Shown here: positions 1-15,258 of the stretch, in pieces | How the letters are laid out: each line of letters starts with the position of its first letter | Position numbering within the stretch: the first letter of the stretch is position 1 | Assembly (NCBI RefSeq): GCF_014203325.1 | Contig: NZ_JACHIV010000001.1 | Coordinates: 4,031,501-4,095,500 of the forward strand | Origin: Saccharopolyspora gloriosae | GTDB lineage: Bacteria; Actinomycetota; Actinomycetes; Mycobacteriales; Pseudonocardiaceae | Length of the DNA stretch: 64,000 nucleotides | Direction of reading: 5' to 3' | The notes under the pieces: generated by a model | What the model was told of the DNA's origin: nothing | The model's input: only the letters and a program-made list of their open reading frames with translations | Databases searched by the model: none | Translations under genes and position numbers: made by a program

Positions 1-1
1 C

Positions 2-643
2 GCCTCGGTGTGGCGCGACTTCCGCGCTGCCACCGGAATCCGCGTCATCGACGGGATCGGATCGACCGAGATGCTGCACGTGTTCGTGTCCGCCGCCGAC
101 GACGACATCAGGCCCGGGGCCACCGGCCGGGCGGTTCCCGGCTACCGGGTCGACGTCGTCGACGACCTCGGGCGCAGCGCGCCCGACGGCGTGCCGGGGC
201 ACCTCGTGGTGCGGGGGCCGACCGGCTGCCGCTACCTGGACGGGCGCAGGCAGCGGGAGTACGTGGTGCACGGCTGGAACCGCACCGGCGACATCTACGT
301 CCGCGACGCCGACGGCCTGTTCTGGTTCCAGGCCCGCTCCGACGACATGATCATCACCGCCGGGTACAACGTGGCCGGGCCGGAGGTGGAGCAGGCGCTC
401 CTGCAACACCCCTCGGTCGCCGACTGCGCGGTCGTCGGCACCCCGGACGCGGAACGCGGCCACGTGGTCACCGCCCACGTCGTGCTGCGGCCGGGGGAAA
501 CGGCCACCGCCGCCGAGTTGCAGGCGTTCGCGAAGGGCGTGATCGCCCCGTACAAGTACCCGCGCCGCATCCACTTCGCCGACGCGCTGCCGCGCAACAG
601 CACCGGGAAGTTGCAGCGGTCCGCGCTCCGCGAGGCGGTCTGA
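2..643 (+). CDS. aryl-CoA ligase (2-aminobenzoate-CoA ligase type), 3' part
   Basis: This is the C-terminal part of an ANL-superfamily acyl/aryl-CoA ligase; the start lies left of the window and the frame is open to the edge. Visible motifs are the A5-type stretch GIGSTEMLHVF, typical of benzoate/aminobenzoate-CoA ligases, the hinge motif near WFQARSDDMI, and the C-terminal catalytic lysine in NSTGKLQR. Such enzymes make aryl-AMP and then aryl-CoA in the cytosol. The next gene encodes an aminobenzoyl-CoA type monooxygenase/reductase and a fused anthranilate synthase lies downstream, so anthranilate is the likely substrate. Benzoate or salicylate cannot be excluded without the N-terminal substrate pocket. 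The stop is 10 bases before the next start, which suggests co-transcription. Confidence 0.85.
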   Translation, partial: ASVWRDFRAATGIRVIDGIGSTEMLHVFVSAADDDIRPGATGRAVPGYRVDVVDDLGRSAPDGVPGHLVVRGPTGCRYLDGRRQREYVVHGWNRTGDIYVRDADGLFWFQARSDDMIITAGYNVAGPEVEQALLQHPSVADCAVVGTPDAERGHVVTAHVVLRPGETATAAELQAFAKGVIAPYKYPRRIHFADALPRNSTGKLQRSALREAV

Positions 644-653
644 GGTGGCGGGC

Positions 654-3035
654 ATGCGGATCGCGATCGCGGGCGGCGGACCGGGCGGCCTCTACCTGGC
701 CGCCCTGCTGGCGCAGCTCGGCCCGCACGACATCACGGTGTGGGAGCAGAACGCCGCGGACGACACGTTCGGCTTCGGCGTCGTGCTCTCCGACGAGACC
801 CTCGGTGGGATCGAGCAGGCGGACCCCGCCGTGTTCGCCGCGATGTCGGAGCGGATGGCGCGCTGGGACGACATCGACGTGCACCACCGCGGGGCCGTGT
901 CCACCTCGGGCGGGCACGGGTTCGCCGCGATCGGCCGGCGGGAGCTGCTGGGCGTGCTCCAGCGCCGCTGCGCGGAACTCGGGGTCACCGTGCACTACCG
1001 CACGCGGTGCCCGGACGCGGCGGTCCTGCAAGCCGATCACGACCTGGTCGTCGCGGCGGACGGGGTGAACTCCGCGGTCCGGGCGGCGCGCGCGGCGGAC
1101 TTCGGCGCGCGCATCACGACCGGGCGCAGCCGGTACATGTGGCTCGGCACCGACCGCGTCTTGCCCGCGTTCACCTTCGACGTCGTGGAGACCCCCTGCG
1201 GCGTCGTGCAGCTGCACGGCTACCCCTATTCCGACCGGGCCTCGACGATCGTGGTGGAGACCTCGGAACCGGCTTGGGAGCAGCTCTTCCGCGACCGCTG
1301 CACCCGCGATCCGGGGCCGGGCGAGAGCGACCTGGCGTCGATCGAGCTCGTCGAGGAGCTGTTCGCGGACCGGCTCGACGGCGCCGCGCTGCTGGCGAAC
1401 GCCTCGCGCTGGTCGCGGTTCCGGACCTTGCGGACCGATCGCTGGCACGCGGGGAACCTGGTGCTGCTCGGCGACGCCGCGCACACCGCGCACTTCTCCA
1501 TCGGGTCGGGGACGAAGCTGGCGATGGAGGACGCGCTCGCCCTGGCGGCGTGCCTGCACGAGCAGGGGGACGTCGCGACCGCGCTCGCCGCGTACGAGGC
1601 GGAGCGGCGACCCGTGGTCGCCTCCACCCAGCGCGCGGCGGCGGCGAGCCAGGCCTGGTTCGAGGACATCGACCGCTACGTCGGCCAGGAACGGCAGCAG
1701 TTCGCGTTCAACCTGCTCACGCGCAGCCGCCGCGTCACCCACGACAACCTGCGCACGCGGGACGCCGCGTTCGTCGAGAACGCCGAGCGCTGGTTCTGCG
1801 GCAGGAGCGCCGGAGCAGACCCCGTGCCGCCGATGTTCACGCCCGTCCGGATCGGCGGTCTCGCGCTGCCGAACCGGGTCGTCGTCTCGGCGATGGACGT
1901 CTACTCGGCCCGCGACGGGGTGCCCGGGGATTTCCACCTCGTCCACCTCGGCGGCAAGGCGCTCGGCGGCGCGGGGTTGGTGATGACCGAAATGGTGTGC
2001 GTCTCCCCTACCGGCAGGATCACCCCGGGGTGCACCGGCCTGTGGAACGCCGAGCAGGAGACCGCGTGGCGCCGGGTGGTCGACTTCGTCCACTCGTCGA
2101 CCTCCTCCCGGATCGGTGTCCAACTAGGACATTCGGGCCGCAAGGGCTCGACCCGGTTGATGTGGGAGGGGATCGACGAGCCGCTGGACACCGGCGGATG
2201 GCCGGTGGTGGGGCCGTCGGCGATCCCGTACTCCGCGCGGAACGCGGTGCCGCACGAGCTGACGGCGGACGAGCTGCGCGGCATCCGGGACGAGTTCGCC
2301 GCTTCCGCCCGCGCCGCCGCCCGCTGCGGGTTCGACCTGCTGGAGCTGCACGTCGCGCACGGGTACCTGCTGTCGTCGTTCGTCTCCCCGCTGTCGAACC
2401 GGCGCACCGACCGCTACGGCGGCGACCTCGACGGGCGGTTGCGCTTCCCGCTGGAGGTCTTCGACGCCGTCCGCGAGGCGTGGCCGGCGGACCGGCCGAT
2501 GTCGGTGCGGATCTCGGCGACGGACTGGCATCCGGGCGGTGTCGACGCGGACGACTCGGTCGAGATCGCCCGGATGTTCGCCGAGCACGGCGCCGACGCC
2601 ATCGACGTGTCGACCGGCCAGGTGGTGCGCGAGGAGACCCCCGAGTTCGGCCGGAGCTACCAGACCCCGTTCGCCGACCGCATCCGCAACGCCGTCGGGC
2701 GCCCGCACGACGGGCCCGCGGTGATCGCGGTGGGCGCGATCTCCAGCTGGGACGACGTCAACTCGATCCTGCTGGCCGGGCGCGCCGACCTGTGCGCCCT
2801 GGGCCGCCCGCACCTCTACGACCCGCAGTGGACCCTGCACGCCGCGGCCGAGCAGGACTACGCCGGCCCCGCCGCGGTGTGGCCGGAGCCGTTCGCGGCG
2901 GGTTCCCGTCGTCCGCGGACGGGCCGCACCGACGGGCCGCCGCCACGGCTGGACCTCCTCCGGAGCGGCCCCGTCCGCGCGCGCCACGCCAGGTGGAACC
3001 CGGCCGGTTTCCCGCCCGAGCCCGCCGGTGGATGA
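654..3035 (+). CDS. fused FAD monooxygenase / old yellow enzyme (2-aminobenzoyl-CoA monooxygenase/reductase type)
   Basis: A two-domain protein of about 793 residues. Residues 1-390 are a class A flavin monooxygenase (IAGGGPGGLYLA at the N-terminus, GDAAHTAHFSIGSG as the second FAD motif). Residues 395-760 are an old-yellow-enzyme/NADH:flavin oxidoreductase barrel (FTPVRIGGLALPNRVV, then HVAHGYLLSSFVSPLSNRR). Known proteins with this fusion are 2-aminobenzoyl-CoA monooxygenase/reductase of Azoarcus evansii, which hydroxylates and reduces the aromatic CoA thioester to a non-aromatic cyclohexene, and salicylyl-CoA 5-hydroxylases. The adjacent CoA ligase and the anthranilate synthase favour 2-aminobenzoyl-CoA. 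I chose ATG 654 because a GAGGTGG element precedes it; GTG 645 is an alternative. The last 40 residues are Arg/Pro-rich and look like an unstructured tail. Confidence 0.85.
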   Translation: MRIAIAGGGPGGLYLAALLAQLGPHDITVWEQNAADDTFGFGVVLSDETLGGIEQADPAVFAAMSERMARWDDIDVHHRGAVSTSGGHGFAAIGRRELLGVLQRRCAELGVTVHYRTRCPDAAVLQADHDLVVAADGVNSAVRAARAADFGARITTGRSRYMWLGTDRVLPAFTFDVVETPCGVVQLHGYPYSDRASTIVVETSEPAWEQLFRDRCTRDPGPGESDLASIELVEELFADRLDGAALLANASRWSRFRTLRTDRWHAGNLVLLGDAAHTAHFSIGSGTKLAMEDALALAACLHEQGDVATALAAYEAERRPVVASTQRAAAASQAWFEDIDRYVGQERQQFAFNLLTRSRRVTHDNLRTRDAAFVENAERWFCGRSAGADPVPPMFTPVRIGGLALPNRVVVSAMDVYSARDGVPGDFHLVHLGGKALGGAGLVMTEMVCVSPTGRITPGCTGLWNAEQETAWRRVVDFVHSSTSSRIGVQLGHSGRKGSTRLMWEGIDEPLDTGGWPVVGPSAIPYSARNAVPHELTADELRGIRDEFAASARAAARCGFDLLELHVAHGYLLSSFVSPLSNRRTDRYGGDLDGRLRFPLEVFDAVREAWPADRPMSVRISATDWHPGGVDADDSVEIARMFAEHGADAIDVSTGQVVREETPEFGRSYQTPFADRIRNAVGRPHDGPAVIAVGAISSWDDVNSILLAGRADLCALGRPHLYDPQWTLHAAAEQDYAGPAAVWPEPFAAGSRRPRTGRTDGPPPRLDLLRSGPVRARHARWNPAGFPPEPAGG

Positions 3036-3098
3036 CCGCCCAGGCGGGCGTGCTGCGGGAGCGCATCGCCACAGCCGCGACCAGATCGGTCAAATGTC

Positions 3099-3126
3099 TT
3101 GTCTTATGCCGCACCGTGGATACACT
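3099..3126 (+). promoter_or_regulatory. candidate promoter upstream of the enoyl-CoA hydratase
   Basis: The gap between the flavoprotein gene and the hydratase gene is clearly more AT-rich than its surroundings. It contains TTGTCT (3099-3104), a 16-base spacer and TACACT (3121-3126), a fair match to actinobacterial housekeeping promoters. A good ribosome site, GAGGGG, sits seven bases before the ATG at 3195. The downstream genes may therefore have their own transcript. Confidence 0.45.
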
Positions 3127-3194
3127 TGAGTAATATTCTGCGGCAAAATCGCTCAATCGTTCATTTCCGACCGGTTCATCCGAGGGGTTGCCAG

Positions 3195-4151
3195 ATGGCG
3201 CGCGTACCGCAGCAGGATCGACCCGCCGAGGCGAGCACGATCACCTACACCCGGCGCGAGGGGCAGGCGATCATCGCGATCGACCGCCCGAAAGCCCTCA
3301 ACAGCCTCAACTTCCTCGCCTTCCAGGAGATCCAGGACGCGCTGCGGGTGGCCGAGCGGGACGACTCGGTCGCCGTCATCGTGATCACCGGCACCGGGAG
3401 CAAGGCGTTCTGCGCGGGCGCCGACCTGCACGAGCACTGGGAGCTGTGCCAGCGCCCGCGCGACTACGTCCCGTGGGTGCGCGAGTTCATCGCCATGCAG
3501 ACGGCCATCGTGCGCTGCGGCAAGCCGACGATCGCCCGGCTCAACGGCCTGGTGGTCGGCGCCGGGAACGAGCTGGCCCTCGCCTGCGATCTCGCGATCG
3601 CCGGCGACGACGTCGTGATCCGGGAAGTGGGGCCTCTGGTCGGCAGCGTCTCCGGCATCGGCGTCACGCAGTGGCTGCCGCTGATGATCGGCGACCGGCG
3701 CGCCCGCGAGGTCGTCCTGCTCTCCGAAGACCTCCCGGCCGCGACGGCGCACGACTGGGGATTGATCAACAAGGTCGTTCCGGCGGCGGAGCTGGACTCC
3801 GCCGTCGACGCCGCGGCGCGACGGCTCACCGACACCTTCCCGGAATCCCTCCGGTTCACCCGCGCACTGGTCAACCAGGCCAAGGAAGCGGCGTGGGCGT
3901 CGAGCGCCGCGCTCGCAGGCGAGTGGCTGGCGATCCACAGCGGGTCCGTCGAGACCCGTCGGGGCATGGGGTCGTTCATCGAGAAGCGTCCCGTCGACCA
4001 CGCGGAACTGCGGGAGCGGGCGGCCCGGGACGAGTCGCCGGAGTTCCCGCACGGACCGCCCGTCGGATCGTGCCCCAGCTGCGGGACCGCGGACCTGCCC
4101 GCGACGTTCCGGTGGTGCGGGGCGTGCGGCGCGGAACTGGCCGCGAGCTGA
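3195..4151 (+). CDS. enoyl-CoA hydratase/isomerase with C-terminal zinc ribbon
   Basis: A crotonase-fold protein of 318 residues. The oxyanion-hole strands AFCAGADLHEH and LVVGAGNELALACDLAIA are intact. The acidic catalytic position lies in the EVGPLVGSVSG segment. It should hydrate or isomerise an enoyl-CoA. Unusually, the last 28 residues form a C-X2-C-X11-C-X2-C motif (Cys293, 296, 308, 311), a zinc ribbon like those on DUF35-type acyl-CoA binding proteins. Ordinary crotonases end near residue 260-290. ATG 3195 is chosen for its GAGGGG site; longer open frame upstream is AT-rich leader. In context it would act on the ring-reduced aminobenzoyl-CoA product, which is inference. Confidence 0.85.
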   Translation: MARVPQQDRPAEASTITYTRREGQAIIAIDRPKALNSLNFLAFQEIQDALRVAERDDSVAVIVITGTGSKAFCAGADLHEHWELCQRPRDYVPWVREFIAMQTAIVRCGKPTIARLNGLVVGAGNELALACDLAIAGDDVVIREVGPLVGSVSGIGVTQWLPLMIGDRRAREVVLLSEDLPAATAHDWGLINKVVPAAELDSAVDAAARRLTDTFPESLRFTRALVNQAKEAAWASSAALAGEWLAIHSGSVETRRGMGSFIEKRPVDHAELRERAARDESPEFPHGPPVGSCPSCGTADLPATFRWCGACGAELAAS

Positions 4152-4162
4152 GGGCGGCGACG

Positions 4163-5347
4163 ATGGACCACACCGCCGACGAGGGGCTCTCCTCGGTGCT
4201 GATCGACGACGCCGCCCGCGCGGAGTTCCGGGGACGGCTGCGCGAATGGCTGCCGGAGCACCTGCCCAGCACCCCGGAACCGGACGGCGTCGAGGACCGG
4301 TTCTGGTGGCGCCACGCCTGGCACCGGACGCTGCACAGCGGTGGCTGGATCGGGGTCGACCTGCCCGCCGAGCTCGGCGGGCACGGGCTCGACGTGCTGC
4401 ACCGGGCCATCGTGATCGACGAGCTCACCACCGCCGACGCCCCGCCGATCGCGAACTGGGTCGGGGTCGAGCTCGTGGCGCCCACCCTGGTGGCCTGCGG
4501 CAGCGCGGACCAGCGCGCCGAGCACGTGCCCGCGATCCTGGACGGCGGATCCGTGTGGTGCCAGGCCTTCTCCGAACCGGAGGCCGGTTCGGACCTGGCC
4601 GCGGTGACGACCCGGGCCACCCCGGACGGCGACGGTTTCGTGCTGCGCGGACGGAAGCGCTGGAGCAGCTGGTCGCGGTTCGCCGACCAGGTCCTGGTGC
4701 TCGCCCGAACCGGCAGCGCGGAGGCTCGGCACAAGGCCCTCTCGTGCTTCATCGTGCCGCTCTCGCACCCCGGAGTGCGCGTGCTGCCCGTCCCGATGCT
4801 GTACGGCGATGCCGAGGAATCCGACATCGTGTTCGACGACGTCCGCGTCGGGCCGGGCGCCCTGGTCGGGGAGCTCGACCGCGGCTGGTCCGTGCTGATG
4901 ACGAGCCTGTCCCTGGCGCGCGGGCTCTCCACCCTCACGCGGGTCGGCGCGCTGCGCCGGGCACTGGCCCGCCTGATCTCCGAACGCATCGAGGTCTGCG
5001 GGTCAGCCGCGGACCTGCCGCCGACCGAGGTGATCGCATTGACGGACTTCCACGCCAGGACGGAGGCGCTGCGCGGCCTCGCCTACCGGAAGGTGGCCGA
5101 CCTGGCGGCCGACGGGGTGCCGGGCCCGGTCGCGTCGACCGAGAAGCTGCTCTGGGGCGAGCTGTCCCGGCAGGTCGCCGATCACGCGGTGCTGCTGGGC
5201 GGGCTCGACGCGCTGGCCCCCTCCGGCGGGATGGCCACCGGGTGGCTGATGGAGCTCTACCGGGGGATCGGCAACGCCATCGAGGGCGGCACCAGCGAGA
5301 TCCAGCGCACCACGATCGCCCGCCACGTCCTGGGACTGCCCGCATGA
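4163..5347 (+). CDS. acyl-CoA dehydrogenase
   Basis: A full-length acyl-CoA dehydrogenase of 394 residues. The FAD/substrate motif is WCQAFSEPEAGSDLA and the C-terminal catalytic region is IEGGTSEIQRTTIARHVLG. It oxidises an acyl-CoA to a 2,3-enoyl-CoA and passes electrons to ETF. The start lies 11 bases after the hydratase stop. The stop overlaps the next start as ATGA, so it is probably translated together with the shorter acyl-CoA dehydrogenase that follows, and the two may form a heteromer as ChsE-type pairs do. The substrate is not evident; a cyclic acyl-CoA from the upstream flavoenzyme is the contextual guess. Confidence 0.88.
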   Translation: MDHTADEGLSSVLIDDAARAEFRGRLREWLPEHLPSTPEPDGVEDRFWWRHAWHRTLHSGGWIGVDLPAELGGHGLDVLHRAIVIDELTTADAPPIANWVGVELVAPTLVACGSADQRAEHVPAILDGGSVWCQAFSEPEAGSDLAAVTTRATPDGDGFVLRGRKRWSSWSRFADQVLVLARTGSAEARHKALSCFIVPLSHPGVRVLPVPMLYGDAEESDIVFDDVRVGPGALVGELDRGWSVLMTSLSLARGLSTLTRVGALRRALARLISERIEVCGSAADLPPTEVIALTDFHARTEALRGLAYRKVADLAADGVPGPVASTEKLLWGELSRQVADHAVLLGGLDALAPSGGMATGWLMELYRGIGNAIEGGTSEIQRTTIARHVLGLPA

Positions 5348-6195
5348 GCCCGGAACGCGGTACAGGACCGTCCCCTGTGGACGGTGATGTGCTCGCCGAA
5401 CTCGCGCTCGGCTGCCTCTCCGCGGAGCGGGAGGGGACGGCGGAGTGGCCGGCCGGTGCGGCCGTCGCCGGGTGGCTCCGGGCGCGGCTGGCCCCGGACG
5501 CCCTCCCGGGCACCGTCGCCACCGGAACCGGCGGGCGGTTCGACGTCGTCGCGGTCTCGCCGCCGGACGTGCTGCTCGAACGCCGCGAACCCGGCGCGGG
5601 GTGGGTGCTGCGCCCGGTCGGGTCCGCCGAGGGCACCGAGCTCACCGACCCCTCGGTCCGCCGGTGGCGGGGCTCGGTGGAACCGGACGCCCCGGCCGAA
5701 CCCGCCCTCCTGCCCGGAGACGCGGCCGAGCGGCTCGCGGTCGTCGACGACATCGCCGTGGCCGCCGCCCTCGTCGGGGTCGCGGACCGCTCGCTCGGTC
5801 TCGCCGTCGCCCACGCCCGCGAGCGCACCCAGTTCGGGCGCCCGATCGCATCCTTCCAGTCGGTCGCCCACCGGCTGGCCGACATGTACTGCGCCGTCGA
5901 GCTGGCCCGCTCCGGGGTGCTGCTCGCGGCGGCCACCGGCGCCGCGACCGACGCACGGCTGTCGCGCAGGCTCGCGGTCACGACCGCGCCCGACGTCGCG
6001 ATCTCCGCCGTGCACCTGCACGGCGCGATCGGGCTGACCGGCGAGGTCGCGGTGCACACCGCGCTGCGCCGGGCGCTCGTGCTGCGCGCGCTGCCCCCGC
6101 ACCCCGACCACGTCCTCGACGCGCTGCGCGGCGATCTGCAGGACCTCGCCGAACGCGCCCGGCGGACGACCTCGATCCCAGGAGCCCAGCCATGA
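5344..6195 (+). CDS. short acyl-CoA dehydrogenase-like subunit
   Basis: A protein of 283 residues, about 100 shorter than a standard acyl-CoA dehydrogenase. The C-terminal helical domain is recognisable (GVADRSLGLAVAHARERTQFGRPIASFQSV and HLHGAIGLTGEVAVHTALRRA), while the N-terminal half is abbreviated and Ala/Gly/Pro-rich. In actinobacterial steroid and side-chain pathways such short partners pair with a full-length subunit in alpha2beta2 enzymes where only one partner carries the catalytic base. Here the ATGA overlap with the full-length gene supports the same arrangement. I cannot see a clear catalytic glutamate, so its role may be structural or in sharing FAD binding. Confidence 0.8.
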   Translation: MSPERGTGPSPVDGDVLAELALGCLSAEREGTAEWPAGAAVAGWLRARLAPDALPGTVATGTGGRFDVVAVSPPDVLLERREPGAGWVLRPVGSAEGTELTDPSVRRWRGSVEPDAPAEPALLPGDAAERLAVVDDIAVAAALVGVADRSLGLAVAHARERTQFGRPIASFQSVAHRLADMYCAVELARSGVLLAAATGAATDARLSRRLAVTTAPDVAISAVHLHGAIGLTGEVAVHTALRRALVLRALPPHPDHVLDALRGDLQDLAERARRTTSIPGAQP

Positions 6196-6317
6196 TCGTC
6201 GAGCTAGAGCGCCGACGGCCCGCCCTCCCCGGTCCGGGCGCGGTGCGCGGCACCAGCGCGTGCCGGGAGCACCAGATCCGCACGACGCCGAACTCTCCGA
6301 AGGCGGTGGCGCGATGA
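6192..6317 (+). CDS. 41-codon small ORF between acyl-CoA dehydrogenase and KARI genes
   Basis: A short Arg/Pro-rich open frame that begins in an ATGA overlap with the dehydrogenase stop and ends in an ATGA overlap with the reductoisomerase start. A clear AGGAG lies seven bases before its ATG. No domain, membrane segment or signal peptide is visible in MIVELERRRPALPGPGAV and what follows. It may be a real micropeptide or simply a device that carries ribosomes from one gene to the next. Protein-level evidence would be needed to call it a gene. Confidence 0.35.
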   Translation: MIVELERRRPALPGPGAVRGTSACREHQIRTTPNSPKAVAR

Positions 6318-7327
6318 CCCGCCCGACGAACGACGCGACCGTGCACTACGCGGACGAGGGGCGGATTCCCCTGCTGCCCGACCGCCGCGTCGCGGTGCTG
6401 GGCTACGGCTCGCAAGGCCGCGCGCACGCGCACAACCTCCGCGACTCCGGGATCGCAGTCCGAGTCGGGCTCCGGCCGGACTCGGCTCGCGTGGCCAGCG
6501 CCCGCGAAGAGGGCTTCACGGTGACCGACACCGGGTCGGCCGCCGAGTGGGCCGATGTGATCGTCATGCTGGTTCCGGACACCCTCGCGCCCGCGGTGTT
6601 CACCGAGTCGGTGGAGCCGAACCTGGCACCCGGCGACGCGCTCGTCTTCGCCCACGGGTTCGCCGTGCACCACGGCCTGATCACCGCATCGGACGAGGTC
6701 GACGTGGTCATGGTGGCCCCGAAGGCACCCGGCCGGGACGTGCGGGCGAGCTTCGAGCACGGCCACGGCTGCCCGGCGCTGGTCGCCGTGGCGCAGGACG
6801 CCACCGGCACCGCGTCCTCGCTCGCCCTGGACTACGCCGACGCGCTGGGCGCGACCCGGGCCGGGGCGTTGGAGACGACCTTCGCCGAGGAGACCGAGAC
6901 CGATCTGTTCGGCGAGCAGGCCGTGCTGGTCGGCGGGGTCACGGAACTGATCAAGACTGCCTTCGAGGTGCTGGTCGACGCCGGGTACCAGCCGGAGTCG
7001 GCGTACTTCGAATGCCTCCACGAGCTCAAGCTGACCGTCGATCTGATCCAGCGGCACGGTCTGGCCGCCATGACCGACCACATCTCCGACACCGCCGAGT
7101 ACGGCGGCTACAGCCGGGGTCCGCGCGTGATCGACGCGCACGTCCGCGCATCGATGGAGGCCGTGCTCGACGACATCAGGTCCGGCGGGTTCGCCTCGGA
7201 GTGGGTGGCCGAGGACCGGGGCGGTCGCCCGCACTTCCGGTCGGCGCGGGCCACCGCGAGGGCGCACGCGATCGAGGCGGTGGGGGCACCGCTGCGCCGG
7301 ATGACCGGCGGCTCGGCCACCTCCTGA
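6314..7327 (+). CDS. ilvC: ketol-acid reductoisomerase, class I, cluster-borne
   Basis: A 337-residue class I KARI. The NAD(P) loop is VLGYGSQGRAHAHNLRDSG. The metal-binding residues lie in ETDLFGEQAVLVGG and in the FECLHELKLTVDLI helix, and the serine of DHISDTAEYGG is kept. The enzyme normally isomerises and reduces acetolactate to dihydroxyisovalerate. The usual APKGPG loop reads APKAPG here. No acetolactate synthase is present in the window, but a dihydroxy-acid dehydratase lies 8.7 kb downstream. It may supply a branched 2-oxo acid for the cluster or act on another 2-acyl-2-hydroxy acid. ATG 6314 gives the family length; the upstream in-frame extension is rejected. Confidence 0.85.
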   Translation: MTRPTNDATVHYADEGRIPLLPDRRVAVLGYGSQGRAHAHNLRDSGIAVRVGLRPDSARVASAREEGFTVTDTGSAAEWADVIVMLVPDTLAPAVFTESVEPNLAPGDALVFAHGFAVHHGLITASDEVDVVMVAPKAPGRDVRASFEHGHGCPALVAVAQDATGTASSLALDYADALGATRAGALETTFAEETETDLFGEQAVLVGGVTELIKTAFEVLVDAGYQPESAYFECLHELKLTVDLIQRHGLAAMTDHISDTAEYGGYSRGPRVIDAHVRASMEAVLDDIRSGGFASEWVAEDRGGRPHFRSARATARAHAIEAVGAPLRRMTGGSATS

Positions 7328-7376
7328 CGAGGCGCCCGAACAACACGTTCCTCACCTTCTGATCAATGGAGTGGTT

Positions 7377-9644
7377 ATGCGGGTGGACTTCGCTTGGATT
7401 GCCCGGGCGTTGGAGGAGGGCGCGCAGAGCGCTGCTCGGTACCGCACGGCGGGCGGTCTCGACGTCGAACGGCGCGTTCGCCCGCTACCCGGGCCGAACG
7501 CCGCTTCGAGATCCCTGAGCCGGGTCGCCGCCGCGCTCGATTCCGCGCCGGGAGCGCTGTTCCACGGGTCAGTGACCCAACCCGGGCGCTACTCGCCGTG
7601 GACCCGCGCCACGGAGCGGGTGGCGCTGGCCTTCGAGGCCCGCGGTCGCGCGTTCCGCGTGCTCGCCCTCGACCCCGGTGCGGGCCCGCTGCTGGAGCTG
7701 GCCACCACCGCGCTGGCCGCCGACCCGCAGGTGCGCGGCCTCGCGGTGCTGCCCGACGGTTCGGGACTGCGCGGCGCCGTCGCCCCCATCGGCACCGGCT
7801 TCGCCGAGGAGGACCGCACCCGGCAACCGTCGACGGTCGGCGTGCTGCGCACGCTCACCCGGGCCCTCGCCCATCCCGACGAGCCGGTGCTGGGCTGGTA
7901 CGGGGCCTTCGGCTACGACCTGATGCTCGGGTTCGACCCCATCACCCGGCGGCACCGCCGCCCGGCGGGCTACCGGGATATCGTCGCGTTCCTGCCCGCC
8001 TCGGTGATCGTGGCCGATCCCGAGCGCGAGCTGGCGCTCGAGGTCGACTACACGTTCTCCGGTCCGCCCGGCACCTCCGGGCCGGTCGCGACCGTCGACC
8101 TCGCCGGTGCTCGCCGGGACCCCGACCCGCCCGCGCGGACCGATCCCGGGCACTACCGGGCAGGTGTGCGCGCGGCGCTGTCGAAGTTCCACGCGGGCGA
8201 CGCCTTCGAGACCGTGCTGAGCCAGACGTTGACCGCCGACCGCGGCGGCGAGCGGGCGAGCGTGGTCTTCGAGCGGCTCACCGCCGCGAATCCCAGCCCG
8301 TACGGCTTCCTCATCAACCTGGGGCGCGGCGAGTCGCTCGTCGGCGCCTCGCCGGAGATGTACGTGCGGGTCGCGGACGGCGTCGTGGAGACCTGCCCCA
8401 TCTCCGGCACCATCGCGCGGGGTGCGTCCGCGATCGAGGAGTCCCGGAACGTGGCCGCGCTGCTGGGCTCCGAGAAGGAGGCCGCCGAGCTGACGATGTG
8501 CACCGATGTGGACCGCAACGACAAGAGCCGCGTCGCGGTCCCGGGCTCGGTGCGGATCGTCGGCCGACGCCAGATCGAGCTCTACTCCCGGCTGATCCAC
8601 ACCGTGGACCACGTGAAGGGCGACCTCGAACGCGGTTACGACGCCTGGGACGCCTTCCTCAGCCACATGTGGGCCGCCACGGTGAGCGGCGCGCCGAAGC
8701 GCGCCGCCGCCGAGTTCATCGAGCACTGGGAGACCTCGGCTCGACGCTGGTACGGCGGCGCGGTCGGCTACGCCACAGTGGACGGAGCGATGGACACGGC
8801 GCTGACCCTCCGGACGGCGCGCTTGACGGACACGACCACCGAGGTCCGCGCGGGAGCGACCCTGCTCATCGGCAGCGACCCGGACGCCGAGGAGGCCGAG
8901 ACGCGGCTCAAGGCGTCCGCCGTGCTGGACGCGCTGCGCGGCAGGACGGCCGCACCCCCGCGCACCGAGCACCCGCTCGGATCGCGCGGCGGAGCCAGGA
9001 CCGGCGCACGAGGGCCGCGGGTCACGCTCGTGGACCACGAGGACTCCTTCGTCCACACGCTCGCGGCCTACCTCCGGCAGAGCGGCTGCGAGGTCGTCAC
9101 GCGGCGGTGGTCCTCGCTGACCGGGTTCGACGAGGGCACCGATCTGGTGGTGCTCTCCCCCGGGCCGGACCGACCGGCGGCCTTCCGCATGAGCGGCACC
9201 ATCGACGCCGCACTCGCAGCGGGAGCCGCCGTGTTCGGCGTCTGCCTGGGGATGCAGGGCATCGTGGAGCACTTCGGCGGGCACCTGCGCGTGCTCGCCG
9301 ATCCGATCCACGGCCGCGCGTCGCAGATCCGCGCGGTCGACGGCGGCGGCGCGCTGCTGCGCGGACTGCCCGCGCGGTTCACCGCCGGGCGTTACCACTC
9401 GCTCTACGTCACCTCCCCCGAGGTACCACCGCCGCTGCGGGTCACCGCCGTCACCGACGACGGCGTCGTCATGGCCATCGAGCACCCCGTTCTGCCCGTC
9501 GGCGGGGTCCAGTTCCACCCCGAGTCCCTGCTGTCGCTCGACGGCGAGGTGGGGCATCGCGTCATCGCGAACCTCATCGAAAGCTGCCGGACCGGTTCGG
9601 CTTCCGGCAGGCGCACCGCCGCGGCCCAGGTCAGGCCAGCATGA
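7377..9644 (+). CDS. trpEG: fused anthranilate synthase (TrpE-TrpG)
   Basis: A 755-residue fusion. Residues 1-530 form the chorismate-binding synthase (NPSPYGFLINLG, CPISGTIARG, DVDRNDKSRV, TVSGAPKRAAAEFIEHWE) and residues 545-735 a class I glutamine amidotransferase (VFGVCLGMQGIVEHFGG with the catalytic cysteine, and FHPES with the catalytic histidine). It converts chorismate and glutamine to anthranilate. PhzE of phenazine pathways has a similar fusion but makes aminodeoxyisochorismate; this protein is longer and its motifs read like alpha-proteobacterial TrpEG, so anthranilate is preferred. ATG 7377 has GGAG five bases upstream. A dedicated copy beside DAHP synthase signals pathway-specific precursor supply. 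Confidence 0.88.
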   Translation: MRVDFAWIARALEEGAQSAARYRTAGGLDVERRVRPLPGPNAASRSLSRVAAALDSAPGALFHGSVTQPGRYSPWTRATERVALAFEARGRAFRVLALDPGAGPLLELATTALAADPQVRGLAVLPDGSGLRGAVAPIGTGFAEEDRTRQPSTVGVLRTLTRALAHPDEPVLGWYGAFGYDLMLGFDPITRRHRRPAGYRDIVAFLPASVIVADPERELALEVDYTFSGPPGTSGPVATVDLAGARRDPDPPARTDPGHYRAGVRAALSKFHAGDAFETVLSQTLTADRGGERASVVFERLTAANPSPYGFLINLGRGESLVGASPEMYVRVADGVVETCPISGTIARGASAIEESRNVAALLGSEKEAAELTMCTDVDRNDKSRVAVPGSVRIVGRRQIELYSRLIHTVDHVKGDLERGYDAWDAFLSHMWAATVSGAPKRAAAEFIEHWETSARRWYGGAVGYATVDGAMDTALTLRTARLTDTTTEVRAGATLLIGSDPDAEEAETRLKASAVLDALRGRTAAPPRTEHPLGSRGGARTGARGPRVTLVDHEDSFVHTLAAYLRQSGCEVVTRRWSSLTGFDEGTDLVVLSPGPDRPAAFRMSGTIDAALAAGAAVFGVCLGMQGIVEHFGGHLRVLADPIHGRASQIRAVDGGGALLRGLPARFTAGRYHSLYVTSPEVPPPLRVTAVTDDGVVMAIEHPVLPVGGVQFHPESLLSLDGEVGHRVIANLIESCRTGSASGRRTAAAQVRPA

Positions 9645-10855
9645 TCCACAGTCGCACCGCCGAGGCCCGGCGCACCCCGTGGACACCTGATTCCTGGCGA
9701 TCGCTCGTCGCGCACCAACAGCCCGCGTGGGATCCCGCCGAGCTGGAGCGGGCCGTGGCAGAGCTGCGGAGCCTGCCCGCCCTGGTGCAACCCGGCGAGA
9801 TCTCGAACCTGCGCCGAGCGCTCGCCGACGCGGCGCACGGCAGGGCGTTCGTCGTCCAGGCGGGCGACTGCGCCGAGTCCTTCGAGGACGCCACCACCGA
9901 GCACATCACGAGCCGGGGTCGGCTCATCGCCCGGCTCGCGCGCGGCTTCGAGCAGATCTCCGGCCGGCCCGCCGTCGCGATCGGCCGCATCGCCGGGCAG
10001 TACGCGAAGCCGCGCAGCGCGCCGACCGAACTCGTGGACGGACGGGCCCTCCCGGTGTTCCGCGGGCACATGGTCAACGGTGCCGCCCCCACGGCCTCGG
10101 CGCGGCGCGCCGACGCCTCCCGGCTCGTGCAGGGCTACTACCGATCGGCCACCACGCTCAACCTGCTCCGCACCCTGCACGCGCACCCGGCCGGGCAGCT
10201 GTGGGTCAGCCGCGAGTGCCTGCTGCTCCCCTACGACCGGTCGACGCTGCGCAACGACCCCGCCAGCGAGCAGTGGTTCCTGTCCAGCACCCACTTCCCG
10301 TGGATCGGCGAGCGGACCCGTGACATCGGAGGGGCCCACGTCGAGCTGCTGAGCGGCGTGGTGAACCCGTTGGGGGTGAAGGTGGGACCGGCGGTCACGC
10401 CGGAGGAGCTCGTGGCGCTCTGCGCCCGGCTCGATCCGGAGCGCGCACCGGGCCGCCTGACCTTGATCACCCGGTTCGGCGCGAACGCCGTCCGCCGCGT
10501 CCTGCCCGAGCTCGTCGCGGCCGTGTCCGCCGCCGGGCACCCGGTGGTCTGGATGTGCGATCCGATGCACGGCAACACGATCCGGCTCCCCTCGGGGATC
10601 AAGACCCGCCGGGTCGCCGATCTGCTGGCCGAGCTCGACGGCTGGTTCGACGTGCTAGCCGGAGCCGGTGCGCACCCCGGTGGCCTGCACCTGGAGTGCA
10701 CGCCCGACGACGTCCGGGAGTGCGTGGACGAGGACACCTCCGAGGTCGGCGAGCAACAGTCCCTGTGCGATCCCCGCCTCGACGCCGACCAGGCCTCGAC
10801 CCTGGTGCGCGGTGCGGCTCAGGGCGTCCGGCGCGGTGCCCGGCCGGTGCCCTGA
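9641..10855 (+). CDS. class II DAHP synthase
   Basis: A 404-residue class II 3-deoxy-D-arabino-heptulosonate 7-phosphate synthase. Diagnostic stretches are FVVQAGDCAESFED, RIAGQYAKPRS, LVNPLGVKVGPA, WMCDPMHGNT and GLHLECTPDDV. It condenses phosphoenolpyruvate with erythrose 4-phosphate and so opens the shikimate pathway. It starts in an ATGA overlap with the anthranilate synthase stop, so the first shikimate step and the anthranilate branch step are translated together. The short form without a long N-terminal extension resembles PhzC and other secondary-metabolism copies, which often escape feedback inhibition. That last point is inference from the family. Confidence 0.9.
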   Translation: MIHSRTAEARRTPWTPDSWRSLVAHQQPAWDPAELERAVAELRSLPALVQPGEISNLRRALADAAHGRAFVVQAGDCAESFEDATTEHITSRGRLIARLARGFEQISGRPAVAIGRIAGQYAKPRSAPTELVDGRALPVFRGHMVNGAAPTASARRADASRLVQGYYRSATTLNLLRTLHAHPAGQLWVSRECLLLPYDRSTLRNDPASEQWFLSSTHFPWIGERTRDIGGAHVELLSGVVNPLGVKVGPAVTPEELVALCARLDPERAPGRLTLITRFGANAVRRVLPELVAAVSAAGHPVVWMCDPMHGNTIRLPSGIKTRRVADLLAELDGWFDVLAGAGAHPGGLHLECTPDDVRECVDEDTSEVGEQQSLCDPRLDADQASTLVRGAAQGVRRGARPVP

Positions 10856-10865
10856 GCCGACGACG

Positions 10866-11840
10866 TCACGCCTCGTCGCTCACCGCCGGGCTCTGCTCGT
10901 TGCCGGCGACCGCGGCGGGCCGCCGGGCCCAGTAGGTGGCGACCAGCGAACCGGAGATGTTGTGCCACACCGAGAAGATCGCCCCGGGCAGCGCCGCGAC
11001 CGGGGAGAAGTAGGTCGACGCCAGGCTGGCCGCGAGGCCGGAGTTCTGCATGCCGACCTCCAGCGCGATCGCGCGCCGGGCCGCCTCGTCGATCCCGACC
11101 ACCTTGGCGGCCACGTAGCCCAGCGCGACGCCGAGCAGGTTGTGCAGCACGACTGCGAGCACCACGATCGGTCCCACGCTGAGCAGCTTGTCCGCGCTGC
11201 CCGACACCACGGCGACCACCACGCCGGTGATCCCGATGACCGAGATCAACGGCAGCACCGGCAACGCCTTCGCCACGGCGGTTCCGGCGACCCGCCGCAA
11301 GGTGAAGCCGAGGATCACCGGGATCAGCACGATCTGCAGGATCTCCACGATCAGCTCGGTCGGATCCACCGGCAGGTAGCTGCCCGCCAGCCAGAGCACC
11401 AGGAACGGCGTGACGACCGGGGCGACCAGAGTGGACACGCTGCTCATCGCCACCGACAACGCGGTGTCCCCCTTGGCCAGGAAGACCATCACGTTCGACG
11501 AGGTACCGCTGGGAGCGCAGCCGACCAGGATCACCCCGACCGCCAGCTCCGGGCTCAGCGGGAGGACCAGGGTCAGCAGCCACGCGAGCAGCGGCATGAT
11601 CACGAAGTGCGCGACGACCCCGATCGCGAAGGCGACCGGACGGCGTGCCACGTAAGCGAAATCCCGCGGTTCGAGGGTCATGCCCATCCCGAGCATGATC
11701 ACCGCGAGGAGCCAGGGGACCACCGAGGTCAACCCGGCGAACGTGTTCGGGAAGGACAGTGCGATCGCTCCGGCGATCAACACGATCAGCGGAAACCAGC
11801 GGCCGACCAACTGGCTGAAAGCGCCTATGCGCGAGGTCAT
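10866..11840 (-). CDS. bile acid:sodium symporter family transporter
   Basis: A 324-residue integral membrane protein with about ten hydrophobic segments. The family signature GCAPSGTSSNVMVFLAKGD and the second-repeat motif LEVGMQNSGLA mark the BASS fold, whose members move organic anions such as bile acids, pyruvate or ketopantoate. The start at 11840 has a strong TGGAGGAACG site. It converges on the DAHP synthase gene with only ten bases between stops and is divergent from the MFS exporter gene. It may move an acidic intermediate or product of the cluster; the substrate is not readable. Confidence 0.85.
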   Translation of the reverse strand: MTSRIGAFSQLVGRWFPLIVLIAGAIALSFPNTFAGLTSVVPWLLAVIMLGMGMTLEPRDFAYVARRPVAFAIGVVAHFVIMPLLAWLLTLVLPLSPELAVGVILVGCAPSGTSSNVMVFLAKGDTALSVAMSSVSTLVAPVVTPFLVLWLAGSYLPVDPTELIVEILQIVLIPVILGFTLRRVAGTAVAKALPVLPLISVIGITGVVVAVVSGSADKLLSVGPIVVLAVVLHNLLGVALGYVAAKVVGIDEAARRAIALEVGMQNSGLAASLASTYFSPVAALPGAIFSVWHNISGSLVATYWARRPAAVAGNEQSPAVSDEA

Positions 11841-11913
11841 CGTTCCTCCACACCGGGCGGTCCCGGCTACGCTGCCGATGCCACGGTCGATGGCACGTGG
11901 CGAAATGAAGCTA

Positions 11914-11947
11914 CCCCACGCGGGCATACGAGTTCTAGATCGTGGGG
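11914..11947. promoter_or_regulatory. inverted repeat in divergent transporter promoter
   Basis: Between the two divergent transporter genes, CCCCACG (11914-11920) and CGTGGGG (11941-11947) form a perfect seven-base inverted repeat with a 20-base spacer. The right arm also belongs to a second small palindrome, CGTGGGGCACG. The spacer is AT-richer than its surroundings. This is a plausible operator for a regulator of both transporters, perhaps the nearby FadR- or Lrp-type protein. Confidence 0.35.
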
Positions 11948-12060
11948 CACGATCGCGGAGCACCTCACATTTCCTCTTGGGCCAGAATGGTTTCTGCCAC
12001 GAGCGGACCGGTTCTCCGCGCCGCTGCTCGGATTTCGGATCGACGAAGGTGGTGCTGCCC

Positions 12061-13497
12061 GTGGACACCGGGGCTGAGTCCGGTCCGGAAGCGGCGGACG
12101 AGCGCGGCGAACCGCGCCGCTGGCTGATCATGGCGGTGCTGAGCGCGGTGGCGTTCATGGCCCAGTTGGACTTCTTCATCGTCAACGTCGCCGTGGACGG
12201 CATCGGGCGGTCCTTCGGCGGGGCGTCGACACCGGCGATGTCCTGGGTGCTGTCGGCCTACGCCATCGTCTTCGCCGCGCTGCTGGTGCCCGCGGGCCGG
12301 CTGGCGGACCTGCACGGCCGGAAGCGGATGCTGCTGGCCGGTGTCGCGGTGTTCACGATCGGCTCCGCGCTGGCGTCGTTCGCGCCGTCGCTGCCGGTGC
12401 TGGTGGCCGCTCGGACCGTGCAGGCGGTCGGCGCGGCGATGAGCGTGCCGCCGTCGCTGGGTCTGCTCTACCCCAGCTTCCCGCCACGCCAGCACGCCCT
12501 GGTCGTCGGGTTGTGGGCCGGGGTGGCCGGAGTGGCCGCCATGGCCGGACCGCCCCTCGGCGGGCTGCTCGCCAGCCTGGACTGGCGGTGGATCTTCCTC
12601 ATCAACCTGCCGATCGGTGCCCTCACGCTCCTCGGAGGTGCCCGGCTGCTGCCGGAGGTCCGGGAGCCGAGCGGCCGGCCCCTGCCCGACGTCGTGTCCA
12701 CCGCGACCCTGCTCGCGGCGGTGAGCGCACTGGTCCTGGCCACCACCCAGGGTCCGCAGTGGGGCTGGGGCAGCCCGTGGACGATCGGGCTGTTCGCCTC
12801 GGCCGCGCTGCTCGCGGCGGTGACGGTGCGACGCGGCTTCACCGCGTCCGCACCGATCATCGAGCCCGCACTGTTCCGCAGCCGGGAGTTCACCGCCGCT
12901 GCGCTCGCGCTGCTCAGCCTGTTCGCGGGCTTCGCGGTCTACCTGTTCGGCGGAGCGCTGTTCCTCCAGCAGGTGTGGCACTTCAGCGTGCTGGAGGCCG
13001 GGATCGGCATCGCCGCCGCCCCGATCGTCTCGGTCTGCTTCGCCGTGAACGCCGGTCCGATCCGGCGCAGGTTCGGCCGGGTGCTGCCCGCCGCCGTCGG
13101 AACCCTCACGATGTCCGCGGCGGCGGGGTACTGGCTGCTCACCGTCACCGACGTCCCCGCCTACTGGTCGGCGATGTTCCCCGGCCTGGTCCTGATGGGC
13201 GTCTCGGGCGGTCTTTCCCAGGCGCCCCTGTTCGCCGCGGCCGGGGCGCTCGCGCCCGACCGCGCCACGACCGGCAGCGCGGTGCTGAACATGAGCCGCC
13301 AGATCGGCAGCGCGATCGGGGTGGCCCTGCTGGTGGCGATGGTGGCCGCCGCACCGTCGGCCCGGACTTTCAGCCATGCCTGGGTTCTCCAGCTGGCGCT
13401 GGGGATCCTGGCCTCGGTCAGCGTCCTGCTGCCGCACCGCCGCGGCGTCGCCGACCGCGCGCACCGGCGCACCACCTCGCGGGCGGCGCAGCGGTGA
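12061..13497 (+). CDS. MFS drug exporter, DHA2 (EmrB/QacA) type
   Basis: A 478-residue transporter with about fourteen membrane segments. The loop 2-3 motif GRLADLHGRKRMLLAG and the segment MSVPPSLGLLYPSF are typical of the DHA2 family of proton-driven multidrug exporters. GTG 12061 is chosen because AAGGTG lies nine bases upstream. Being divergent from the BASS transporter and next to the anthranilate-derived pathway, it is a candidate exporter or self-resistance gene for the product. Its stop is 11 bases from the stop of the convergent FadR-type regulator. Confidence 0.85.
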   Translation: MDTGAESGPEAADERGEPRRWLIMAVLSAVAFMAQLDFFIVNVAVDGIGRSFGGASTPAMSWVLSAYAIVFAALLVPAGRLADLHGRKRMLLAGVAVFTIGSALASFAPSLPVLVAARTVQAVGAAMSVPPSLGLLYPSFPPRQHALVVGLWAGVAGVAAMAGPPLGGLLASLDWRWIFLINLPIGALTLLGGARLLPEVREPSGRPLPDVVSTATLLAAVSALVLATTQGPQWGWGSPWTIGLFASAALLAAVTVRRGFTASAPIIEPALFRSREFTAAALALLSLFAGFAVYLFGGALFLQQVWHFSVLEAGIGIAAAPIVSVCFAVNAGPIRRRFGRVLPAAVGTLTMSAAAGYWLLTVTDVPAYWSAMFPGLVLMGVSGGLSQAPLFAAAGALAPDRATTGSAVLNMSRQIGSAIGVALLVAMVAAAPSARTFSHAWVLQLALGILASVSVLLPHRRGVADRAHRRTTSRAAQR

Positions 13498-13508
13498 CCG
13501 CGCGTCTC

Positions 13509-14396
13509 CTACACCGCGGTCGGGGGCGCGTTCGAGGTGGCCGCCGCCACGAACGCCTCCAGCGCGCTCAACGTGCCCACCTCGTCGTCCTCGGCCAGCG
13601 GTAGGTAGTAGTCGACGATGTCCCGCCGGGCGCACGACGACGCCAGGTCCGGGTCGCCGAGCCGGATGGCGTCGACGACGGCACCGTGGCGGCGGACGAA
13701 GTCGCGCTTGACGGCATCGCCGCCCTTGAGCGTGGCGTCGCCGATCAGTCCGGCCATCGCCGCCCGCACGGCGCTGGTGGACAGCTCCAGCAGCCGATTG
13801 CCCGAGGCGCGGGCGACCGAGACGTGGAACTCCACGTCGGCGGCGATGTACTCCTCGTTCGTGCCGCTCTCGACGGCCGCCTCGACGGCCAGCTGAGCCC
13901 GGACGATGCCGTCGATCTGCGCTTGGTCGCGGCGCTGCGCGGCGAGGTGGCAGGCGGTCGTCTCGACCAGCATGCGGAACCCGATGAGGTCGCCGAGCGA
14001 GAGCTGGGAGTACCGGACGAGGTCCAGCAGCGAACGCTCCAGGTTCGCGCCGTCGGGCATCCGGACGATGGCGCCGCCGGTGGGGTCGTTCGGGCGCAGG
14101 ACCACGACTCCCGCGCTCTCCAGCGTGCGCATCGCCTCGCGCACGGTCGGCCGGCTCACGCCCATCTGGGCGCAGAGTTCGCGTTCCGACGGCAAGCGGT
14201 CGCCCGGCTGGAGCTGCCCCTGGAGGATCTTCTCCTCGATCTGCGCCTTGACCGCCTCGTGCGCGCGCGTTCGGGCGACCGGAGCGAACTTCGGGGTGGG
14301 CACCTTCGCACTCCACTCGTCGAGCCGTTTGCGTGACAGCGACCTCTCCGCCTCCGCCGACCCGCGGAGCGGCGCCGACGTGCGCAGCATAGACAC
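13509..14396 (-). CDS. FadR/GntR-family transcriptional regulator
   Basis: A 295-residue regulator. The winged helix lies near residues 45-115 (GDRLPSERELCAQMGVSRPTVREAMRTLE), followed by a six- to seven-helix FCD ligand domain (FRMLVETTACHLAA, EYIAADVEFHVSVARASGN). FCD proteins sense acids or CoA-linked metabolites and usually repress. The N-terminal 40 residues are charged and less conserved in character, so the start is uncertain: GTG 14396 has a better-spaced AGGTCGAC than ATG 14390. It lies 57 bases downstream of an Lrp-type gene on the same strand and may share its transcript. Confidence 0.82.
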   Translation of the reverse strand: MSMLRTSAPLRGSAEAERSLSRKRLDEWSAKVPTPKFAPVARTRAHEAVKAQIEEKILQGQLQPGDRLPSERELCAQMGVSRPTVREAMRTLESAGVVVLRPNDPTGGAIVRMPDGANLERSLLDLVRYSQLSLGDLIGFRMLVETTACHLAAQRRDQAQIDGIVRAQLAVEAAVESGTNEEYIAADVEFHVSVARASGNRLLELSTSAVRAAMAGLIGDATLKGGDAVKRDFVRRHGAVVDAIRLGDPDLASSCARRDIVDYYLPLAEDDEVGTLSALEAFVAAATSNAPPTAV

Positions 14397-14453
14397 GTCG
14401 ACCTGCGCGGATACCCCGGCCCCGCAGGCGGGTGCCGCTTGACTCGCGCGCCG

Positions 14454-14978
14454 TCACCGGATCGTCTGGGTCGACCGCAGCAGCGTCGACGGCTCGCCGG
14501 TCGTGCCGGTGGTCGCCCCCTGCCGGCCGTGCGCCACCGGGAGCAGCGCGATGTCGGCCTCGTGCCCGAGCAGCGTGCCGCCGCCGGGAGCACCGCACGC
14601 GGCGAAGCAGGACTCGGCCGCCTCGATCATGTAGTCCCAGCCGGAGGACAGGACGTGCACGCGCTGCACCCCCGCGAGACCGCTCAGATCACCCGCGGTG
14701 GGACGTCCGTCGCCGGTGAACCGCACGAAGGCGAGCACGCAGCCCTCGACGACCGCGCGGGCGCTGATCCGCGCGTGGTAGCCGCGCACGACGCCGGAGC
14801 GCTCCAACCGTCGCAACCGCACGCGCACCTGGGAGCGGGACAGGCCGATCCGGCTCGCCAGGTCGTGCGTCTCGGCGCAGGCGTTCGATCGAAGCAGGCT
14901 GATGAGCATCCTGTCGGCCACGTCGACCTCGGGCCGGGACGACGTCTCGGGTTCAGGACAGCCGGTCCATTGGTCCAT
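14454..14978 (-). CDS. Lrp/AsnC-family regulator A
   Basis: A 174-residue protein with an N-terminal helix-turn-helix (VADRMLISLLRSNACAETHDLASRIGLSRSQVRVRLRRLERSGVV) and a RAM-type effector domain behind it. The RAM domain is atypical in its last third, with Gly/Thr-rich sequence. Family members bind amino acids and regulate amino-acid metabolism or secondary metabolism. It is divergent from a second Lrp/AsnC gene at 15390, across 411 bases that contain a perfect -35 hexamer and a palindrome on this gene's side. Confidence 0.8.
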   Translation of the reverse strand: MDQWTGCPEPETSSRPEVDVADRMLISLLRSNACAETHDLASRIGLSRSQVRVRLRRLERSGVVRGYHARISARAVVEGCVLAFVRFTGDGRPTAGDLSGLAGVQRVHVLSSGWDYMIEAAESCFAACGAPGGGTLLGHEADIALLPVAHGRQGATTGTTGEPSTLLRSTQTIR

Positions 14979-15225: not shown

Positions 15226-15258
15226 CAGCATGCTGGTCAGTCCAGTAATCCATGTCAA
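15226..15258 (-). promoter_or_regulatory. candidate promoter and palindrome for regulator A
   Basis: On the minus strand TTGACA (complement of 15253-15258) is followed after 17 bases by CAGCAT (complement of 15230-15235). The -10 match is weak, but it overlaps the perfect ten-base palindrome CAGCATGCTG (15226-15235), a possible autoregulatory operator. The transcript would have a leader of roughly 240 bases. I see nothing else convincing in the remaining 14979-15389 gap. Confidence 0.35.

Follow-up and report, generated by a model that had tools for sequence, protein, structure and literature searches.

Described anthranilate-CoA systems

The closest described counterparts of the locus reported here are the aerobic pathways for catabolism of 2-aminobenzoyl-CoA (anthraniloyl-CoA) of Azoarcus evansii and of plasmid pAL1 from Arthrobacter sp. 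Rue61a (available parts of PMC3534580 and PMC4539516). The same reaction sequence can be proposed for a unit of 16 genes, about 20 kb long, in Saccharopolyspora gloriosae, whose genome is a single contig of 6.83 Mb. This unit lies at the left end of a stretch of 64,000 nucleotides (positions 4031501-4095500), hereafter the window, and spans about -2.2 to 17.9 kb, negative coordinates being upstream of window position 1 (Table 1).

According to the accessible portion of PMC3534580, anthranilate-CoA ligase activity has been reported for the pAL1 ligase gene, and Rue61a cells grown on anthranilate contain CoA esters fitting hydroxyanthraniloyl-CoA and C7H8O4-CoA, the latter perhaps being cyclohexanedione-carboxyl-CoA. 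The pAL1 genes, which were matched to the locus tags of that paper by gene order, encode a ligase 57% identical to that of the window and, adjacent to it, a 2-aminobenzoyl-CoA monooxygenase/reductase (ACMR) with 61% identity, with a RidA gene near them. However, whereas aerobic catabolic loci degrade anthranilate, the Saccharopolyspora unit also carries genes making it, a fused anthranilate synthase (TrpEG) and a short class II DAHP synthase (DAHPS), together with paralogues of ketol-acid reductoisomerase (KARI) and dihydroxy-acid dehydratase (DHAD). That anthranilate is made and dearomatised here for a product seems probable; the best explanation of the whole unit is a dedicated specialised-metabolite cluster, turning chorismate-derived anthranilate into a non-aromatic acid, for which in full we consider the balance to be even. 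The novelty is in the combination of genes, not in any single family, and no description of this gene set was found among the matches listed in the open-access PMC literature, in line with a preliminary description of the locus that knew of no product made by the full set.

Predicted dearomatising cassette and anthranilate supply

A script based on codon usage called the genes across 110 kb, and these were named through Pfam and NCBIfam profiles. The preliminary description had placed the locus at 2..10855 and had proposed that a normally catabolic dearomatising cassette is joined there to its own anthranilate supply, a proposal that the present analysis supports. Every gene it named is present on the + strand, and the overlaps and short gaps it had seen are reflected in ATGA overlaps at ACAD1/ACAD2 and TrpEG/DAHPS. 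The unit is larger than had been thought, running from the gene of a short-chain dehydrogenase/reductase (SDR) at -2073 to the end of the DHAD gene at 17898. Extension of the locus to the left, as had been recommended, brought to light SDR and the enamine deaminase Rid, which, like DHAD, had been left out of the inventory.

ACMR, a fusion of a FAD monooxygenase with an old yellow enzyme (OYE)-like reductase, scores 1148 bits against NF006101 (cut-off 1078), in keeping with its earlier assignment to the ACMR or salicylyl-CoA 5-hydroxylase type. This model is named for salicylyl-CoA 5-hydroxylase and so leaves the substrate unsettled. Judging by its neighbour genes and its homology to the pAL1 protein, we infer that ACMR would convert anthraniloyl-CoA to 2-amino-5-oxocyclohex-1-ene-carboxyl-CoA. 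Salicylate is disfavoured as a substrate, TrpEG and Rid pointing to an amino acid. No sign was seen of the preference of ligase and ACMR for salicylate or benzoate that, by the terms of the preliminary description, would have counted against it. The ligase reaches 349 bits with the benzoate-CoA ligase model, below its cut-off of 375.

An ACMR scan gave 350 relatives, the best 80 of which were retained for locus counts, a gene being taken as present when a match of at least 44% identity covered more than half the length of the query. The ligase was found at 70/80 of these loci, Rid at 67/80 and SDR at 29/80; ligase-ACMR-Rid is a widespread, old cassette. This co-occurrence is the one that marks aerobic anthranilate-CoA catabolic clusters, which would hold no anthranilate-making genes, whereas TrpEG and DAHPS lie within the present unit. 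The crotonase (ECH), the two acyl-CoA dehydrogenases (ACAD1 and ACAD2), KARI, TrpEG and DAHPS were each present at a single locus out of the 80, that of Saccharopolyspora sp. NFXS83, and for KARI, TrpEG and DAHPS there was no match (E<1e-10) at the other 79. Only 50/80 loci were at least 22 kb long, so that the absence of partner genes weighs less for the other 30; moreover, many loci contain weaker ECH-like (maximum 35%) and ACAD-like (maximum 43%) genes, and some such activity may thus belong to the cassette. In a tree, the window ACMR nests, on a long stem, with those of Pseudonocardia and Geodermatophilus.

With regard to supply, TrpEG is a fused TrpE-TrpG protein that exceeds the cut-offs of TIGR01815 (TrpE-clade3; 792 against 739 bits) and NF010081. 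The alternative of a PhzE-like ADIC synthase was rejected because two anthranilate synthase cut-offs are passed. Elsewhere the genome encodes another TrpE that exceeds the cut-off, as well as one PabAB-like and two isochorismate synthase-like proteins. DAHPS, a short form, passes the Pfam cut-off and not that of the class II equivalog (413 against 615); its best PDB match is 6bmc, which we take to be Pseudomonas PhzC, the alignment covering residues 4-370 out of the 384 used in the search. The profile searches took 9701-10852, the start being set at 9641, and a long class II copy is found at 1393302. Another short class II DAHPS, 44% identical, was observed in a genome of the same genus (G001:C5:39805-40956), so a dedicated supply enzyme may be present at another locus of the genus as well.

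Loci with TrpEG and no ACMR, within the 20 kb read around each, were also found in the family. Three of them (G383, G081 and G226) resemble the window in having their own anthranilate supply, including DAHPS, and a similar ligase (54-61%), but differ from it in lacking an ACMR or KARI match; in G169 TrpEG is accompanied by DAHPS. In G383 (L138, 1-16535), TrpEG, DAHPS and the anthranilate-type ligase stand beside PaaA, PaaB, PaaC, PaaD and PaaE-like oxygenase genes, a BBE oxidase and a hotdog thioesterase, which is perhaps another way to oxidise anthraniloyl-CoA; gene sizes in G081 and G226 are similar.

Conservation of the unit

The same 16 genes, in the same order and with 94-98% protein identity, are found in Saccharopolyspora sp. 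NFXS83 (G005), where similarity to the window region begins near -2237, upstream of SDR. The flanking genes do not match: in the 65.5 kb of NFXS83 read, the only further hits were one to the GntR gene at 30%, in a different place, and one of 47 residues (68%) to a single later gene of the window. Within six genomes of the genus, ECH (E<=1e-60) was found in these two (G000, the host, and G005) and not in G001-G004.

A related cluster was found within about 17 kb in a genome of another genus of the family (G179). It comprises genes for an MFS transporter, a luciferase-like monooxygenase, ACMR (43%), SDR (49%), Rid (50%) and a GntR/FCD relative (34%), followed by a further MFS transporter, a PaaK-like ligase, a hexapeptide protein, TrpEG (50%) and an Lrp/AsnC regulator (48%), and ending with ECH (61%), ACAD1 (55%), ACAD2 (45%) and KARI (60%). 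Because G179 pairs a very diverged ACMR-SDR-Rid set with the same ECH-ACAD1-ACAD2-KARI-TrpEG core, the join does not appear to be due to chance. Its ACMR sits on a very long branch whose position is uncertain, and its ligase is of another type, so that the two halves either became partners long ago or did so on two occasions. The homologue itself (L134:5131-7206) has 692 aa and an eroded OYE domain, and may only hydroxylate.

Among 390 genomes of the family, ECH (E<=1e-60) was found in 3, TrpEG (E<=1e-100) in 7 and two KARI matches (E<=1e-60) in 9, the three features coinciding only in G000, G005 and G179; these searches, and those across the class, scored no more than the top few candidates of each genome. 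In a plasmid collection no ECH was found at E<=1e-40. The KARI/ECH/ACAD core was found only beside an ACMR, in 3/3 genomes and two lineages, which speaks against the possibility, raised in the preliminary description, that the TrpEG/DAHPS half is a separate locus joined by chance.

KARI, DHAD and the acyl-CoA enzymes

KARI and DHAD are extra copies of branched-chain enzymes. The former scores 467 bits with NF004017 (cut-off 336) and retains D197, E201, E233 and E237, each six positions beyond a magnesium ligand of Sac-KARI; the same offset is seen in the alignment to 5yeq, which we take to be Sac-KARI. The ligands of Sac-KARI are D191, E195, E227 and E231 (available part of PMC5940873). The D/E/E/E two-magnesium set and both domains are those of a class I KARI. 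The housekeeping KARI of the host is located at 5244389, and in a tree with 21 other family KARIs, which include the housekeeping copies of the host, G005, G004 and G001, the cluster KARIs (window, NFXS83 and G179) form one clade with 99/99 support, although the long branch of the G179 protein makes its exact place unsure. The result is the same with or without the host and the three same-genus copies. Near the metal-ligand motifs, PKGPG, VLCGG and PE(I/V)AYFE of ordinary KARIs are replaced by PKAPG, VLVGG and PESAYFE, present in 3/3 cluster KARIs and 0/21 others. Separate in clade and in genome place, the cluster enzyme is not the housekeeping one. DHAD scores 986 bits with NF009103, against a cut-off of 710 for the IlvD equivalog, and is 63% identical to the host's own DHAD at 5249515.

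KARI-family enzymes have been drawn into specialised chemistry before. The cyclopropanol synthase BurG belongs to a separate clade (PMC9359912, in the part available); the window KARI is nearer to class I enzymes, with best PDB chains at 1e-98 to 1e-128 against about 4e-44 for BurG (7pce, 7pco). As in the window, a KARI paralogue lies near the valanimycin cluster, where it is accompanied by acetohydroxyacid synthase (AHAS) and transaminase genes for valine (accessible text of PMC4353338), whereas Pfam and NCBIfam profiles found neither a thiamine-diphosphate (AHAS) gene nor a transaminase gene among the 16.

ECH ranks high with the MenB, BadI and dearomat_oah models and ACAD1 with the pimeloyl-CoA dehydrogenase (PimC) model, all below cut-off. 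The motif IEGGT(S/N)EIQ of ACAD1, whose Glu is presumably the catalytic base, is present in the window and in G179. Regarding the pair of acyl-CoA dehydrogenases announced in the preliminary description, both are present, but the second matches the C-terminal domain only, and reaches 88 bits with the IpdE2 model (cut-off 450). ECH ends in a zinc-ribbon-like CxxC...CxxC tail (window 4065-4148), which is kept in G179 and is, to our knowledge, unusual for the crotonase family.

Proposed pathway and competing explanations

Homology to known enzymes suggests that DAHPS and TrpEG would supply extra anthranilate, that the ligase would form anthraniloyl-CoA, and that ACMR would hydroxylate C5 and reduce the ring, giving 2-amino-5-oxocyclohex-1-ene-1-carboxyl-CoA. 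Rid could then hasten the hydrolytic conversion of this enamine to 2,5-dioxocyclohexane-1-carboxyl-CoA, while a ketone may be reduced by SDR. Both Rid and the precedent of pAL1 suggest that the amino group is removed, so a product keeping the 2-amino group, as envisaged in the preliminary description, becomes less likely and is disfavoured. Later, the ring might be altered or opened by ECH and the ACAD1/ACAD2 pair, and the paralogous KARI and DHAD might convert a 2-hydroxy-3-oxo acid, carbocyclic or ring-derived, to a 2,3-dihydroxy acid and then to a 2-oxo acid, a route absent from the earlier proposal and suggested by this pair of enzymes. Since the pair occurs without AHAS, the 2-hydroxy-3-oxo acid would come from elsewhere. 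Completion and export of the product could fall to a transaminase encoded elsewhere and to the MFS pump. Chances are about even that KARI and DHAD are used in the pathway.

One form that these last steps could take is a ring contraction through the α-ketol rearrangement activity of KARI on dearomatised anthranilate, which we consider distinctly unlikely. Acetolactate has a cyclic analogue in 1-hydroxy-2,5-dioxocyclohexane-1-carboxylate, which would be the substrate and which KARI would rearrange and reduce to 2-hydroxy-2-(1-hydroxy-3-oxocyclopentyl)acetate; DHAD would then yield (3-oxocyclopentyl)glyoxylate, from which a transaminase would form a cyclopentylglycine, an antimetabolite resembling isoleucine. 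Through such a five-membered ring, the shikimate pathway would be connected with the branched-chain enzymes. Cycloalkylglyoxylate antibiotics, e.g., ketomycin, offer a chemical precedent. Enzymes of α-ketol rearrangement are rare, KARI and AuaG being the only ones named in a 2021 review (PMC8551875, in the part available).

Several observations weigh against the proposed biosynthetic cluster as a whole. The window and NFXS83 represent a single lineage, which leaves no more than two independent clusters in support of the link, and in an even sample of the class the other 393 genomes gave no relative of ECH at E<=1e-70 (1/394, its own). The G179 ACMR scores 736 against the cut-off of 1078, and LDMADG replaces LHVAHG in its OYE domain, so the reduction may proceed differently there; the 60 kb of G179 that were read contain no match to DHAD or DAHPS (E<=1e-8), the DHADs found being on other contigs. 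The active-site positions of ECH differ between the window and G179 clusters in the alignment, the differing residue being, as we assume, the second crotonase active-site position. None of the genes in the block obviously makes the α-hydroxyl of KARI's normal substrate. The luciferase-like monooxygenase, intact in G179, is represented in the window genome only by a C-terminal fragment outside the block, and no match to it was found around the NFXS83 block.

The presence of KARI and DHAD could also reflect self-resistance, both being copies insensitive to a dearomatised acid that inhibits the branched-chain pathway. Duplicated target enzymes are a known pattern in clusters, both proteins are paralogous to housekeeping enzymes, and the KARI metal ligands are kept, with the three cluster-specific motifs near them. 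However, the duplication of two consecutive enzymes would be unusual and a branched-chain-like sequence accounts for both, whereas the G179 cluster has KARI alone; we regard self-resistance as unlikely. Likewise doubtful is a route through ECH and the ACADs that would yield 2-amino-5-oxocyclohexene-carboxylate or, with the ring opened, a C7 chain of the 4-oxopimelate type, KARI serving only as a 2-keto acid reductase. The ranking of ECH with MenB/BadI and of ACAD1 with the pimeloyl-CoA dehydrogenase model, below cut-off, would fit this route, and the reductase activity of KARI takes various 2-keto acids (PMC5940873, part available), but the retention of DHAD in the block would be left unexplained, and Rid argues against retention of the enamine.

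A contribution of KARI and DHAD to valine or ketoisovalerate, for a product or for pantoate, appears quite improbable: AHAS, the usual controlling step, and a transaminase are both missing from the 16 genes, and G179 has KARI alone, even though a PanS-like transporter adjoins and the ilvBNCE genes beside the valanimycin cluster, with a KARI selective for valine precursors, provide a precedent (PMC4353338, same portion). Taking into account that ligase-ACMR-Rid is widespread, that the window ACMR nests among such loci and that ORFs resembling integrase or transposase pieces (judged by eye) lie to the left, a catabolic anthranilate cassette could have landed by chance beside unrelated biosynthetic genes. 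This last explanation is disfavoured and highly improbable, G179 joining the same core to a diverged ACMR-SDR-Rid set and a pathway for degradation gaining nothing from dedicated DAHPS and TrpEG enzymes.

Gene content, regulation and neighbouring loci

Table 1. Genes of the unit in S. gloriosae, in window coordinates
Gene product	Coordinates	Strand	Features
SDR	-2073..-1411	+	upstream of window; first gene of unit
Rid (enamine deaminase)	-1414..-1004	+	upstream of window
Anthranilate-CoA ligase (putative)	-976..643 (3' part 1..643 in window)	+	AMP-binding; 57% to pAL1 AMP-binding protein
ACMR-type FAD monooxygenase + OYE-like reductase fusion	645..3035	+	PF01494 + PF00724; NF006101
ECH, crotonase with C-terminal zinc-ribbon-like tail	3195..4151	+	PF00378
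ACAD1, three-domain acyl-CoA dehydrogenase	4163..5347	+	all three domains matched; IEGGT(S/N)EIQ motif
ACAD2, partner-like subunit	5344..6195	+	PF00441, C-terminal part only (searched from 5377)
KARI (IlvC) paralogue	6314..7327	+	NF004017; both Pfam domains
Fused TrpEG, TrpE-clade3	7377..9644	+	TIGR01815 + NF010081
Short class II DAHP synthase	9641..10855	+	PF01474
BASS/PanS-like transporter	10866..11840	-	PF01758
MFS transporter	12049..13497	+	PF07690
GntR/FCD-family regulator	13509..14303	-	PF00392 + PF07729
AsnC-type regulator-like protein	14454..14921	-	PF13404
Lrp/AsnC regulator	15390..15914	+	PF01037 + PF13404
DHAD (IlvD) paralogue	16072..17898	+	NF009103; last gene of shared block

The GntR and Lrp/AsnC proteins probably control the cluster. 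The 159 bp between ACMR and ECH, a gap of lower GC content (58% for 3030-3200), contain a TGCCGCA/TGCGGCA inverted repeat to which no regulator was linked. In window 1-18200, no sigma-70-like promoter was found, and the one terminator-like site was weak and below the shuffled mean; one guessed operator sequence gave no match. The PanS-like transporter scores 312 bits with the PanS model, below the cut-off of 400.

To the left of the unit, the stretch L009:2244-6195 (window about -13.3 to -9.3 kb) carries debris: a hexapeptide gene, 51% identical to that of the G179 cluster, the 186-aa C-terminal fragment of the luciferase-like monooxygenase mentioned above, and the integrase- and transposase-like ORFs. 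No tRNA was found in L009, which includes this left flank. To the right, a separate compact nonribosomal peptide synthetase (NRPS) cluster occupies window 38576-52211, with an isochorismatase-like protein, SHMT, a stand-alone AMP-binding protein, a methyltransferase and a 1699-aa NRPS of C-A-MT-T-TE organisation; a KAS III gene (37310-38284) is located just to its left. Between both clusters (27306-36998) lie a LysR gene, with a FAD monooxygenase (28315-29655) as its neighbour, and a transporter of the MMPL family (34407-36998).

Significance

The unit would be a case in which, in two lineages, a module for degradation has been turned to biosynthesis and provides its own substrate. None of its 16 genes is named by Pfam or NCBIfam as a polyketide synthase or an NRPS, and general tools may therefore not flag such clusters. 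If KARI acts on a carbocycle, this would be a ring contraction by an enzyme of primary metabolism, open to direct test with a single purified protein, and an antimetabolite of the branched-chain type or a herbicide-like acid could be the product. Even if it does not, ACMR together with a KARI paralogue and TrpEG offers a specific query by which a class of clusters can be searched for.

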